64,000 bases of DNA from positions 1,609,875 to 1,673,874 of the forward strand of contig NZ_JAHTBK010000001.1 in assembly GCF_020177575.1 (NCBI RefSeq), written 5' to 3'. The notes below the pieces were generated by a model, which ran no database searches, was not told the DNA's origin, and worked only from the letters and a program-made list of their open reading frames with translations. Positions 34,935 to 43,553 of this stretch are shown here, in pieces. Position 1 is the first letter of the stretch, and every line of letters starts with the position of its first letter. Origin of the DNA: Hasllibacter sp. MH4015. GTDB lineage: Bacteria > Pseudomonadota > Alphaproteobacteria > Rhodobacterales > Rhodobacteraceae. The position numbers and the translations under genes were made by a program.

Positions 34935-36287
34935 ATGACAGATCTCACCATCATCGGCGGCGGCATGGCCGGGGCGGAGGCCGCGTGGCAAGCCGCAAAT
35001 CAGGGCCTCAAGGTGCGTATCGTGGAGATGCGTCCGAAGGTCGAAACCTTCGCCCACCGTACTGGCCACCTCGCGGAAATGGTCTGCTCCAACTCCTTCC
35101 GTTCCGACGATGACGAACAGAACGCCGTGGGCCTTCTGCATTGGGAAATGCGCGCCGCAGACAGCATCATCATGACGACCGCCGACGCGCACAAACTGCC
35201 CGCGGGTGGCGCGCTGGCGGTGGACCGCGACCCATTTGCCGAAGCTGTCACTGCCAAGCTGTCCGCCCACCCGAATATCGAGATCACCCACGACGAAATC
35301 ACCGCCCTGCCCGACAGCGGCCCGACCATCATCGCCACCGGCCCGCTCACCGGCGGCGCACTGGCCCAGGCCATCGCGGACGAAGCGGGCCAAGACAGTC
35401 TCGCGTTCTTCGACGCCATCGCCCCCATCGTCTACGCCGATAGCATCGACATGTCCGTCGCCTGGCGGCAATCGCGCTACGACAAGGGCGACACGCCGGA
35501 GGAGCGGGAGGCGTACATCAATTGCCCCATGACGAAGGATGAATACGACGCCTTCATCGACGCACTTCTCGCCGCCGACAAGACCGAGTTCAAGGAGGGG
35601 GAGACGGCCACCTATTTCGACGGCTGCCTGCCCATTGAGGTCATGGCCGAACGGGGCCGGGAGACGCTGCGCCACGGCCCGATGAAACCCGTCGGCTTGA
35701 CCAATCCCCACGATCCGCAGACCAAGGCCTGGGCCGTCGTGCAGCTCCGCCGCGACAATAAGCTCGGCACGCTTTACAATATCGTGGGCTTCCAGACCAA
35801 GATGAAGTACGGCGCGCAAACCTCTGTTTTTCGTATGATTCCGGGCCTTCAAGACGCCAGTTTCGCGCGGCTCGGCGGCATCCACCGGAACACCTTCATC
35901 AATTCCCCCACGCTGCTGGATGACCAGATGCGCCTGCGCTCCAAACCCCATATCCGCTTCGCGGGCCAGATCACGGGGGTGGAAGGCTACGTCGAATCCG
36001 CCTCCATGGGCCTGCTTGCGGGCCGCTTGGCCGCCGCCGAACACCACGGGCACGTGCTGCCGCCGGTGCCCCACACCACCGCGATGGGCGCGCTCGTCAC
36101 CCACATCACCGGCGGGGCGGAGGCGAAGAGCTTCCAGCCGATGAACGTAAATTTCGGCCTGTTCCCCCCCGTCGAAGGCCTCAAAGGCGGACGGCGCGGG
36201 CGCAAGGACCGCTACAAGGCCTATACCGATCGCGCCAAGGCCGATTGGCAAACGTGGCTCGCCCCGCAAGCGCAGGCCGCCGAATGA
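34935..36287 (+). CDS. trmFO: tRNA (uracil-54-C5)-methyltransferase, folate- and FAD-dependent
   Basis: Makes 5-methyluridine at position 54 of the tRNA T-loop, using methylenetetrahydrofolate and FAD rather than SAM. The 450-residue protein begins with the FAD motif [13 protein letters not shown] and continues with [13 protein letters not shown] (Cys51), [21 protein letters not shown] and [17 protein letters not shown], all diagnostic of TrmFO. The C-terminal NVNFGLFPP is also typical. It lies in the gyrA-doxX-trmFO run. Confidence 0.95.
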
Positions 36288-36325
36288 TCTGGACGCAGGC
36301 CGTTTGCGCCGCCTAGGCTTCCCCC

Positions 36326-36922
36326 ATGGCAACGTTCGACAAACCGCTCTGGCAGCCCCGCTCACCCGAAGAAACCCAGGCCATCTACCGCGACTGGGCC
36401 GCGACCTATGACGTCGATGTGCAAGGCGCGGGCTATGCCACGCCGGGCCGCCTCGCCAAGGCATTGGCCAAGGTCGCACCCGACAAAACCGTCCCGCTTC
36501 TGGATTTCGGATGCGGCACCGGCCTCTCGGGCATGGCGCTGGCGTCAGAGGGCTTCACTGCCATCGACGGCACCGACATCACGCCCGAAATGCTCGACAT
36601 CGCATCCCGGACCGGCGCTTACCGTTCCACTTGGATAAGCCAACCGGGCGACGCGCCGCCTGGCGGCCATACGATCATCGCGGCCATCGGCGTCGTCAGC
36701 CTCGGTGCCGCCCCGGCGGAGACGTTGCACACGCTCATCGCCGCCTTGCCGCCGGGCGGGCTTCTGGGGTTCAGCTACAATGACGCGACCCTTGCCGATC
36801 AGACCTACATGGAGGCGCTGGCCAAGGCGCGGAACAGCGCCGATCTGATCCATGACAGCTACGGCGATCACCTGCCGGGCAAGGACATGAAGTCCTCCAT
36901 CTACATCCTGCGCAAATCGTGA
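36326..36922 (+). CDS. class I SAM-dependent methyltransferase
   Basis: A 198-residue protein with motif I LLDFGCGTGLSGMAL (residues about 58-72) and a following acidic GTDITPEML. The N-terminal SPEETQAIYRDWAATYD block is shared with small-molecule methyltransferases of the UbiE-like group. The substrate is unknown. Its stop overlaps the GTG of gluQ, so it is coupled to that tRNA-modification gene and lies downstream of trmFO, but this does not prove an RNA substrate. Confidence 0.82.
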   Translation: MATFDKPLWQPRSPEETQAIYRDWAATYDVDVQGAGYATPGRLAKALAKVAPDKTVPLLDFGCGTGLSGMALASEGFTAIDGTDITPEMLDIASRTGAYRSTWISQPGDAPPGGHTIIAAIGVVSLGAAPAETLHTLIAALPPGGLLGFSYNDATLADQTYMEALAKARNSADLIHDSYGDHLPGKDMKSSIYILRKS

Positions 36923-37761
36923 TCACCCGCTTCGCGCCGTCGCCCACCGGGCCGCTGCATCTGGGCCATGCCTATTCGGCGCTGCTGGCCCATGACATGG
37001 CGCGGGCCGCCGGTGGGACATTCCTTCTGCGCATCGACGATCTCGATCAATCCCGGGCCCGCGCGGAATGGGAGGATCTGATTTACGAGGATCTGAGCTG
37101 GCTCGGCATAGGTTGGGACGGCCCCGTGCGCCGCCAATCGGATCATTTCGACGGATACCGGGCAGCCCTGGAAAGCCTTGCGACCCACGGCGCGGTCTAT
37201 CCCTGCCGATGTTCGCGCGCCGACATCGCCGCTGCGGCCTCCGCCCCACAAGAAGGTGTGCCGGATTTCGGCCCCGACGGGCGCATCTATCCCGGCACCT
37301 GCCGGGGCCGCGCCTTTTCAGATCGGCAACCCGGCGACGCCTTGCGCTATGACCTGTCCCGCACGGTCGGACCGCCCTCCCGAATGCCGGCCTTCACGGA
37401 AACCGGCCCCCTTCATGAGGGAGAGCATGACGTGACCGCCGAGCATCTGCTGACCCGTGTGGGCGACCCGGTCCTCGCCCGGCCCGGCATGGCGGCGAGT
37501 TACCATTTCTCGGTCATTCTCGATGACGCCGAGCAGGGTGTGACCCACGTGATACGTGGCGAAGACCTGTTCGAGGCGACATTCCTGCAAAGGTTCCTAC
37601 AATGGGAATTGGGATTGTCGCCACCAATCTACCACCACCATCGTCTGATCCGGGACACGTTCGGCAAGCGGCTGGCCAAGCGTGACGACGCGCGCGCAAT
37701 CCGCAAGTATCGGGAGGATGGGGCGAGCCCGCAAGATGTTCGGGCAATGGTGGGCCTATGA
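36919..37761 (+). CDS. gluQ: glutamyl-queuosine tRNA(Asp) synthetase
   Basis: A truncated GluRS paralogue that attaches glutamate to queuosine at position 34 of tRNA-Asp. The 280-residue length (no anticodon-binding domain) separates it from GluRS. Visible are RFAPSPTGPLHLGHAYS with the HIGH-type motif HLGH (14-17), a zinc site from YPCRCSR and YPGTCRG, the TAEHLLTR and HVIRGEDLF blocks, and a KMSKS variant GKRLAKR. It starts with GTG overlapping the previous stop. Tgt, which begins queuosine synthesis, is encoded at 58207. Confidence 0.93.
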   Translation: MITRFAPSPTGPLHLGHAYSALLAHDMARAAGGTFLLRIDDLDQSRARAEWEDLIYEDLSWLGIGWDGPVRRQSDHFDGYRAALESLATHGAVYPCRCSRADIAAAASAPQEGVPDFGPDGRIYPGTCRGRAFSDRQPGDALRYDLSRTVGPPSRMPAFTETGPLHEGEHDVTAEHLLTRVGDPVLARPGMAASYHFSVILDDAEQGVTHVIRGEDLFEATFLQRFLQWELGLSPPIYHHHRLIRDTFGKRLAKRDDARAIRKYREDGASPQDVRAMVGL

Positions 37762-37847
37762 TCTCCAATCCTTAAGATTTGGTTACCAGAAAAGCCTTTT
37801 TTGTTTTCTTTTAATGACTTAACCCCTGGTTGCAAGCGCGCAACCCC

Positions 37848-38207
37848 TCACTCCGGCGCCATCAATTCCACCTCTTCGCCGGAGGTAACCGAGGTGAAGA
37901 AACACACCCGCCGGTTCGTGTGGCAGGCCGGGCCGGTCTGGTTCACGATCGCCAGCAGGCAGTCGCGGTCGCAATCGACCCGCAGGTCGACCAGGTCCTG
38001 CGTGTGGCCACTGGTCTCTCCCTTCACCCAGAACGCCTGCCGCGACCGGCTCCAATAGGTCACGCGTTTCGTCTCCAGGGTTTTCGCGACGGCATCGGCG
38101 TTCATCCACGCCATCATCAGAACCTCGCCGCTCCCCTTCTCTTGGGCGATGCAGGGGATCAGGCCGTTGGCGTCAAAGCGGAGTGTGGCCGGGTCGAAGG
38201 CGGTCAT
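37848..38207 (-). CDS. hisI: phosphoribosyl-AMP cyclohydrolase
   Basis: Third step of histidine synthesis: opens the adenine ring of PR-AMP. The 119-residue single-domain form lacks the HisE fusion. Family features are VLMMAWMNADAVAKTLET, YWSRSRQAFWVKGETSGH and the metal region DCDRDCLLA with Cys79, Cys83 and the later ACH (Cys95). The ATG at 38207 follows AGGG by eight bases. It is convergent with gluQ; the 86-base gap holds a GGTTGC/GCAACC inverted repeat (37828-37845). Confidence 0.93.
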   Translation of the reverse strand: MTAFDPATLRFDANGLIPCIAQEKGSGEVLMMAWMNADAVAKTLETKRVTYWSRSRQAFWVKGETSGHTQDLVDLRVDCDRDCLLAIVNQTGPACHTNRRVCFFTSVTSGEEVELMAPE

Positions 38208-38273
38208 GGGCGCACCCTTTGCAAATCGAAAACTCACCGCTACCTATGGGCAGACGGCACGAAAGGCAAAGCG

Positions 38274-38726
38274 ATGACGACCGACACCGATCTCATCAAG
38301 CTCTATTCCCAGCGCATCCTCGCGCTTGCGGCGGACATCCCCCACCGCACGCGGCTTGCCGACCCGCAGGCCAGCGTCAAGAAACGCGCGCCCCTCTGCG
38401 GGTCGACGGTGACGGTGGACGTGGTGATGGAGGATGGACGCATCAGCGCGTTCGGGCAGGACGTGAAGGCCTGTGCCCTTGGCCAGGCCGCTGCCGCGCT
38501 GTTGGGCCGGAACGTGATCGGACGCACCCGCGCGGAGGTCGAGGCCGCCCGCGACGCCCTGCGCGCGATGCTGAAGGACGGCGGTGATCCCCCGTCCCTG
38601 CCCTTCGCGGGATATGAGGTGCTGGAACCCGCGCGCGACTATCGCAATCGCCACGCCTCCATCATGCTTGCGCTGGACGCCACCGCCGACGCCATGGCCG
38701 AAGCCGAACGCGCCGCCTGCGCCTAG
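38274..38726 (+). CDS. IscU/NifU-like iron-sulfur cluster assembly scaffold protein
   Basis: A 150-residue protein of the NifU N-terminal type used as a platform for building Fe-S clusters. Conserved cysteines are in APLCGSTV and KACALGQA, positioned like the first two ligands of IscU. The third IscU cysteine is not in its usual context; only a Cys at the extreme C-terminus (AACA) is present, as in shorter alphaproteobacterial relatives. It is divergent from hisI with 66 bases between starts. A role in the SUF pathway is inference. Confidence 0.82.
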   Translation: MTTDTDLIKLYSQRILALAADIPHRTRLADPQASVKKRAPLCGSTVTVDVVMEDGRISAFGQDVKACALGQAAAALLGRNVIGRTRAEVEAARDALRAMLKDGGDPPSLPFAGYEVLEPARDYRNRHASIMLALDATADAMAEAERAACA

Positions 38727-38752
38727 GCGCCGTCCCGAACGACCTGCCATCC

Positions 38753-38790
38753 AAAAAAACCGCCGCGCATCCAGGGCAGGATGGCGGCGG
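38753..38790 (-). terminator. rho-independent terminator
   Basis: Read on the minus strand: a CCGCCGCCATCC / GGATGCGCGGCGG stem with one bulge, then seven U. It lies 122 bases beyond the stop of the small gene at 38912-39034 and before the convergent scaffold-protein gene, so it likely ends that transcript. Confidence 0.75.
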
Positions 38791-38911
38791 AGTGATGCGT
38801 ATCCGTGACGCCCCGAGGCATGGGGCTATGGGCGAGGCAGATGTTCGGGCGGGGACAAGTCGCCGGAACAAGAAACCCAAGAATGGATCGCAGGCAGAAC
38901 CGTGTCGGACC

Positions 38912-39034
38912 TCAGATGAGACCCGGAAGATGCAAGAGCGCGACCGTCATCCCGGCAAGGGCCACGACACCGGCCAAATCATACATCAGCGTGTCGCGCG
39001 ACCGGGCGAGGATCTGAGTGGCTTGGCGGATCAT
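38912..39034 (-). CDS. 40-residue single-helix membrane protein behind a LexA-type box
   Basis: Begins MIRQATQILARSRDTLMYDL and ends with one hydrophobic helix, AGVVALAGMTVALLHLPGLI (residues 21-40). The N-terminus is basic and amphipathic, so it would lie in the cytoplasm with the helix in the inner membrane. The start is well supported by GGAGG five bases upstream. A terminator follows, and a GTTC-N7-GTTC box lies 68 bases upstream (39103-39117), between this gene and recG. Small LexA-controlled membrane peptides such as Caulobacter SidA block cell division; a similar role is possible here but is inference only, since no sequence similarity to SidA is claimed. Confidence 0.7.
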   Translation of the reverse strand: MIRQATQILARSRDTLMYDLAGVVALAGMTVALLHLPGLI

Positions 39035-39102
39035 GGGGACCTCCGGGTGTTGGTTAACGTCTTTGTTGACCCTTTGTTCTCATGTCCGGTCGCATTTGTC
39101 CA

Positions 39103-39117
39103 GAACTTTTTGAGAAC
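39103..39117 (-). promoter_or_regulatory. LexA (SOS) box, alphaproteobacterial type
   Basis: GAACTTTTTGAGAAC on the plus strand, which is GTTC-N7-GTTC on the minus strand, the exact alphaproteobacterial LexA consensus. A near copy with six-base spacing (GTTCGCGAATGTTC) overlaps at 39114-39127, and a 19-base palindrome GAACAAAC-CGC-GTTTGTTC lies at 39124-39142. The box can serve only the minus-strand gene at 38912-39034, as recG ends at 39155 in the same direction. Confidence 0.65.
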
Positions 39118-39154
39118 ATTCGCGAACAAACCGCGTTTGTTCTCATTTTTAGCC

Positions 39155-43553
<4,399 letters not shown>

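Follow-up and report, generated by a model that had tools for sequence, protein, structure and literature searches.

SidA of Caulobacter crescentus is a 29-residue, SOS-induced inner-membrane protein that blocks cell division at FtsW (PMC4211646). The same organism has DidA, a small single-helix membrane protein that is also damage-induced and division-blocking (PMC4211646). In E. coli, TisB (29 residues) and DinQ (27 residues) are inner-membrane peptides controlled by LexA (PMC8309996, PMC3567139), and SulA, an SOS division inhibitor, is a soluble protein acting on FtsZ (for FtsZ, PMC4211646). The window analysed here (the whole stretch of 64,000 nucleotides, from a genome of 3.7 Mb) contains a small gene 3' of recG that can be compared with these systems. 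The features of the locus are as follows.

38753..38790, minus strand: intrinsic terminator, about 120 nt past the stop codon of the small gene (RNA fold)
38912..39034, minus strand: small gene for a 40-residue hydrophobic peptide with a single predicted helix (translation, profile, dN/dS, AlphaFold2)
39040..39044, minus strand: GGAGG ribosome-binding site, 5 bases 5' of the ATG (sequence)
39065..39081, minus strand: GAGAACAAAGGGTCAAC, a probable degenerate second LexA box, GAAC-N7-CAAC, inverted (conserved spacing)
39097..39102, minus strand: -35-like hexamer abutting the box, TGGACA here and mostly TTTACA elsewhere (positional conservation)
39103..39117, minus strand: LexA-type operator GTTCTCAAAAAGTTC, 68 bases 5' of the ATG (conservation across loci)
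39124..39127, minus strand: extra GTTC half-site upstream, six bases off the box (39/45 thinned and 8/27 diverged loci)
39155..41275, minus strand: recG, the upstream neighbour on the same strand (RecG_dom3_C and helicase domains)
41268..43523, minus strand: ligA, 5' of recG (NAD-dependent DNA ligase domains)

The small peptide resembles SidA, a tiny, single-helix, LexA-controlled inner-membrane protein of an alphaproteobacterium (PMC4211646), in that it is itself tiny (31 to 45 residues in its family) with one predicted transmembrane helix. SidA differs in its 29 residues and its demonstrated action on FtsW, and the likeness is one of architecture only (PMC4211646); it may serve as the nearest working model for the small peptide. 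DidA is unlike it in having 71 residues with cytoplasmic and periplasmic parts, and in being induced by DriD independently of the SOS response (PMC4211646). TisB and DinQ have charged residues inside their helices and antisense-RNA antitoxins (PMC8309996, PMC3567139), whereas the helix end of the small peptide is free of charge: of 158 unique peptides, 157 lack K, R, D and E altogether in their last 15 residues. Rfam searched at the gathering threshold found no family in 36000-42000. Of 61 genomes searched, including 37 from the Rhodobacter/Roseobacter family, none contained the SulA domain (PF03846), and no Pfam match was obtained for 22 members of the small-peptide family; SulA therefore does not serve as the SOS division inhibitor in those genomes.

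The small gene and its peptide family

The sequence-only reading had described a 41-codon frame with GGAGG five bases before its ATG, one hydrophobic helix, a downstream terminator, and a perfect GTTC-N7-GTTC box 68 bases upstream, between the frame and recG. The locus indeed contains all of them. The frame consists of 40 codons and TGA and encodes MIRQATQILARSRDTLMYDLAGVVALAGMTVALLHLPGLI (translation of 38912-39034, minus strand), the hydrophobic helix is supported by the sequence, and the box lies where it was placed. The terminator is present too, but beyond the interval 38912-39142 to which the reading had been assigned. Its stem (38760-38790) is followed by seven U, and the RNA fold of -26.1 kcal/mol (z -2.13) was equalled by 8 of 200 shuffled sequences; it is missing from the output of a simple terminator scan. 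Between hisI and the small gene, a convergent frame of 150 residues (38274-38726, plus strand) had no Pfam match at E 1e-5.

Within the genus, differences between small-gene sequences at the three codon positions numbered 593, 332 and 1349 (78 pairs), and the median dN/dS was about 0.14 (78 pairs, one of them saturated). This purifying selection, together with the residues G22 and D19 that the peptides share, led us to reject a chance open reading frame, and the frame is almost certainly a real gene.

Residues were counted in 164 peptides, 158 of them unique; the 38 loci L261-L298 were left out of these counts, and the L220 peptide is truncated where its locus ends. The unique peptides are 31 to 45 residues long, with 107 of the 158 having 40 residues. 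The most conserved positions are G22 (100%), D19 (99%), P37 (96%), L34 (94%) and L26 (91%). The best 19-residue hydropathy averages 2.17, with a lowest value of 1.38, and the helical moment is low (mean 0.12, maximum 0.25). AlphaFold2, run with 44 sequences, predicted helices at residues 2-11 and 13-39 with a mean pLDDT of 89.4. A net charge of at least +1 precedes the helix in 91 of the 158 unique peptides, and because this signal is weak, an N-terminus-inside orientation is a modestly supported guess. In L123, L132, L135, L144, L299 and L300, the peptide has 31 residues, barely more than the helix, and the D-x2-G and LP motifs are kept; by eye, this branch resembles loci titled Paracoccus.

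Searches of Pfam, NCBIfam and PADLOC gave no match for any of 22 members, and the missing Pfam and NCBIfam matches may be due to the shortness of the peptide. Two PHROG matches (E 0.04, each for a single member of the 22) and a PDB match (E 0.81) were taken as chance. The charge-free helix with its strictly kept D-x2-G and LP motifs suggests a specific protein partner, the identity of which it leaves unnamed.

Distribution and position relative to recG

With the 40-residue peptide as the query against its own genome and 100 relatives (E up to 0.1), matches were obtained in 35 of the 101 genomes, including all 13 of the genus with the source genome counted. recG adjoined the small gene in all 30 loci fetched from this single-peptide search. 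A family profile (A1), built from 22 members and applied with a cut-off of E up to 0.001, matched 350 of 390 genomes of the order and 132 of 139 genera. The reading frame is thus conserved across Rhodobacterales, as the sequence-only reading had expected for a real gene. That reading had also assigned the gene to the roseobacter lineage; it is present there, but its range is wider and includes genomes titled Rhodobacter, Rhodovulum, Paracoccus and Gemmobacter.

Among the 40 genomes not matched by the profile, 20 were followed up along with 10 weak matches, and the recG locus was fetched in all 30. In 27 of these 30 genomes, recG is followed by the exact box and by a short hydrophobic frame (29-76 residues, 19-residue hydropathy mean above 1.6). 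Counting two genomes with a relocated copy, G272 and G119, the cassette is retained in 29. In G272, box and small gene lie about 25 kb from recG on the same contig, near a hisI-like frame (by eye), and in G119 they lie together about 1 kb beyond recG. The remaining genome, G319 (locus L139; 2.6 Mb), has no cassette and a different frame after recG, and its best profile match has an E value of 0.84; this is likely a real loss.

The promoter pattern was also scanned for in a species collection, using no protein information, and gave at least 118 stretches. The peptide follows the pattern in 117 of the 118 stretches listed (79/80 and 38/38), and in the sole exception, L227, the sequence ends 33 nt past the pattern; L012, read from a contig of identical length, has the peptide at that place. 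The 20-bit profile threshold was passed by 112 of those listed (77/80 and 35/38). recG lies upstream in 117 of them; in L287 (titled Rhodovulum bhavnagarense), box and small gene are present, but recG is absent from the 900 nt upstream. The titles of the listed stretches are what we take to be names of the Rhodobacter, Roseobacter or Paracoccus groups, or unspecific MAG names.

Across the class, 289 evenly drawn genomes gave five profile matches at E up to 0.01, namely the source genome, three others from its family and a marginal one lying within a frame of 290 residues. From 30 genomes representing other alphaproteobacterial families, one genome each, the recG locus was obtained in 29, one of which had just 261 nt after recG; neither the box (0/29) nor a hydrophobic short frame (0/29) was found after recG. 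At this locus, the small gene is therefore not a checkpoint inherited from the alphaproteobacterial ancestor. A mobile origin was rejected, since a plasmid search with one member (L105) and a phage search with P0001 gave no match and the promoter pattern was not found in viral contigs.

The three genomes in which recG does not adjoin the pair (G272, G119 and L287) show that the operator belongs with the small gene, because box and gene persist together there. The earlier suggestion that the gene is expressed apart from or together with ligA-recG holds in its first part, since the operator tracks the small gene in these genomes; elsewhere, read-through from recG into the small gene may occur. 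The box was rejected as a control element of recG, as it is positioned 3' of recG and accompanies the small gene even when recG has a different location.

The operator and the promoter layout

GTTC-N7-GTTC is the LexA motif described for alphaproteobacteria (PMC3323433). Its mere presence was rejected as evidence, with a frequency close to chance both in the window (2 observed against 2.07 expected) and genome-wide (93 against 80 for a reversed control pattern). The box rises above chance through its conservation upstream of the small gene: 59 of the 60 loci carry the exact motif (57 of 58 once two duplicates are removed), which was found in none of 956 other 160-nt segments from the same loci and strand. 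In the family loci, the box starts 70 to 107 nt before the ATG. The order recG, box, small gene, in which the earlier reading had placed the operator, is a conserved one. The one examined locus lacking the exact N7 box, L016 (genome G049), has GTTC half-sites at a different spacing and retains GAGAACAA; it is possibly a natural operator variant.

In 30 genomes of the Rhodobacter/Roseobacter family, the same motif precedes recA in 30/30 and lexA in 30/30, and GTTC-N7-GTTC is therefore the LexA operator of this lineage. The box reads GAAC relative to recA and lexA in 60/60 cases and GTTC relative to the small gene. We consider it very probable that LexA controls the small gene. In the lexA promoters of L070, L066, L075 and others, three tandem half-sites make up two GAAC-N7-GAAC boxes that overlap, offset by 11 nt.

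The surroundings of the box are conserved as well, with the layout GTTC-N6-GTTC-N7-GTTC, then a TTTACA-like hexamer, then GAGAACAA at 36 nt from the box start. The form TT[TG]A[CT] occupies the -35-like position in 41 of 45 thinned and 22 of 27 diverged loci, and the TGGACA of the window departs from it. GAGAACAA is found at its fixed place in 40 of the 45 thinned loci and is part of GAAC-N7-[CG]AAC, which occurs at a constant distance in 40/45 thinned and 20/27 diverged loci. Two oppositely oriented LexA boxes would flank the promoter, the second of which we infer to bind LexA. A strict sigma-70 scan of the small-gene promoter found no promoter, with no recognisable -10 element. Right after the recG stop, the palindrome GAACAAACCGCGTTTGTTC (39124-39142) supplies inverted GAAC/GTTC half-sites beside the operator.

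Possible role of the peptide

The gene, its family, the operator, the promoter layout and the hydrophobic helix are established from sequence. LexA binding, induction, location and target of the peptide are predictions; LexA repression, damage induction and membrane insertion are drawn from the operator, established SOS biology and hydropathy, and the divisome link is drawn solely by analogy. As a full explanation, we propose a LexA-repressed, damage-induced, single-pass membrane peptide that holds the divisome in the manner of SidA, to which we give about an even chance of being right. In the undamaged cell, LexA on the box beside the -35-like element would silence the small gene, and LexA may also occupy the inverted second box. 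Upon DNA damage, RecA would trigger the self-cleavage of LexA, and the small gene would then be transcribed from its own promoter, independently of recG. The product of 31 to 45 residues would insert as a single inner-membrane helix, probably with its N-terminus inside, placing the invariant D-x2-G at the membrane entry of the helix and the conserved L-x-L-P near its outer end. The helix could grip a partner in the inner membrane, most likely a late divisome component (FtsW, FtsI, FtsN or a neighbour), so that division would be held back until the DNA is repaired.

The partner could also lie elsewhere. With the same regulation, the peptide might regulate another membrane protein, such as a CckA-like sensor kinase, a protease, or the gene transfer agent or competence machinery. 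The charge-free helix with D-x2-G and LP agrees with this, as it implies a specific partner and does not name one. Furthermore, LexA has been linked to cckA in R. capsulatus and, in D. shibae, to flagella, pilus and gene transfer agent (GTA) genes, the targets given for D. shibae LexA also including lexA, recA, dprA and pde2 (PMC6473078). On the other side, the targets known for SOS-induced single-helix proteins in alphaproteobacteria lie in cell division (PMC4211646). We regard a partner of this other kind as unlikely, though still a serious prospect.

A second alternative is a membrane-depolarising SOS toxin like TisB or DinQ, which would send damaged cells into dormancy. The size, the single helix and the LexA control are similar, and two LexA operators likewise overlap the promoter of DinQ (PMC3567139). 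The TisB helix, however, displays four charged residues along a polar strip (PMC8309996). The charge-free helix end and the low helical moment of the small peptides speak against such a strip and make a TisB-like pore unlikely; a specific contact between helix and protein would fit the charge-free helix with D-x2-G and LP better. In addition, most type I toxins are not known to be near-universally conserved at one locus, which also counts against a depolarising peptide, and we consider this role distinctly improbable.

It is hardly credible that the box arises as a side effect of the regulation of recG or ligA-recG, with a reading frame open only by chance: the genomic density of the box near that of the control and the apparent LexA regulation of recG in some alphaproteobacteria (PMC3323433) would allow it, but it is already contradicted by the sequence results, with the box 3' and not 5' of recG, box and peptide together even where recG is elsewhere, and a frame under purifying selection with G22 in every unique peptide and D19 in nearly all.

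Neither recG nor the term 'cell division inhibitor' occurs in the main text of the D. shibae study (PMC6473078). Among the titles and abstract openings listed, a set with most subscription journals outside it, neither the small gene nor any SOS division inhibitor for the Rhodobacter/Roseobacter family was found. Returning to the SidA-like checkpoint, we tentatively suggest, at somewhat less than even confidence, that this unnamed family provides the chief brake on division during the SOS response in almost all of the Rhodobacter/Roseobacter/Paracoccus family, independent of SidA in origin, acting through the D-x2-G/LP helix and expressed from a promoter flanked by two opposed LexA boxes. The peptide family is present in 132 of the 139 genera sampled, yet the 22 members scanned have no Pfam or NCBIfam match. 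The small gene is a near-universal, sequence-defined candidate for the SOS division inhibitor of a large marine and freshwater family.
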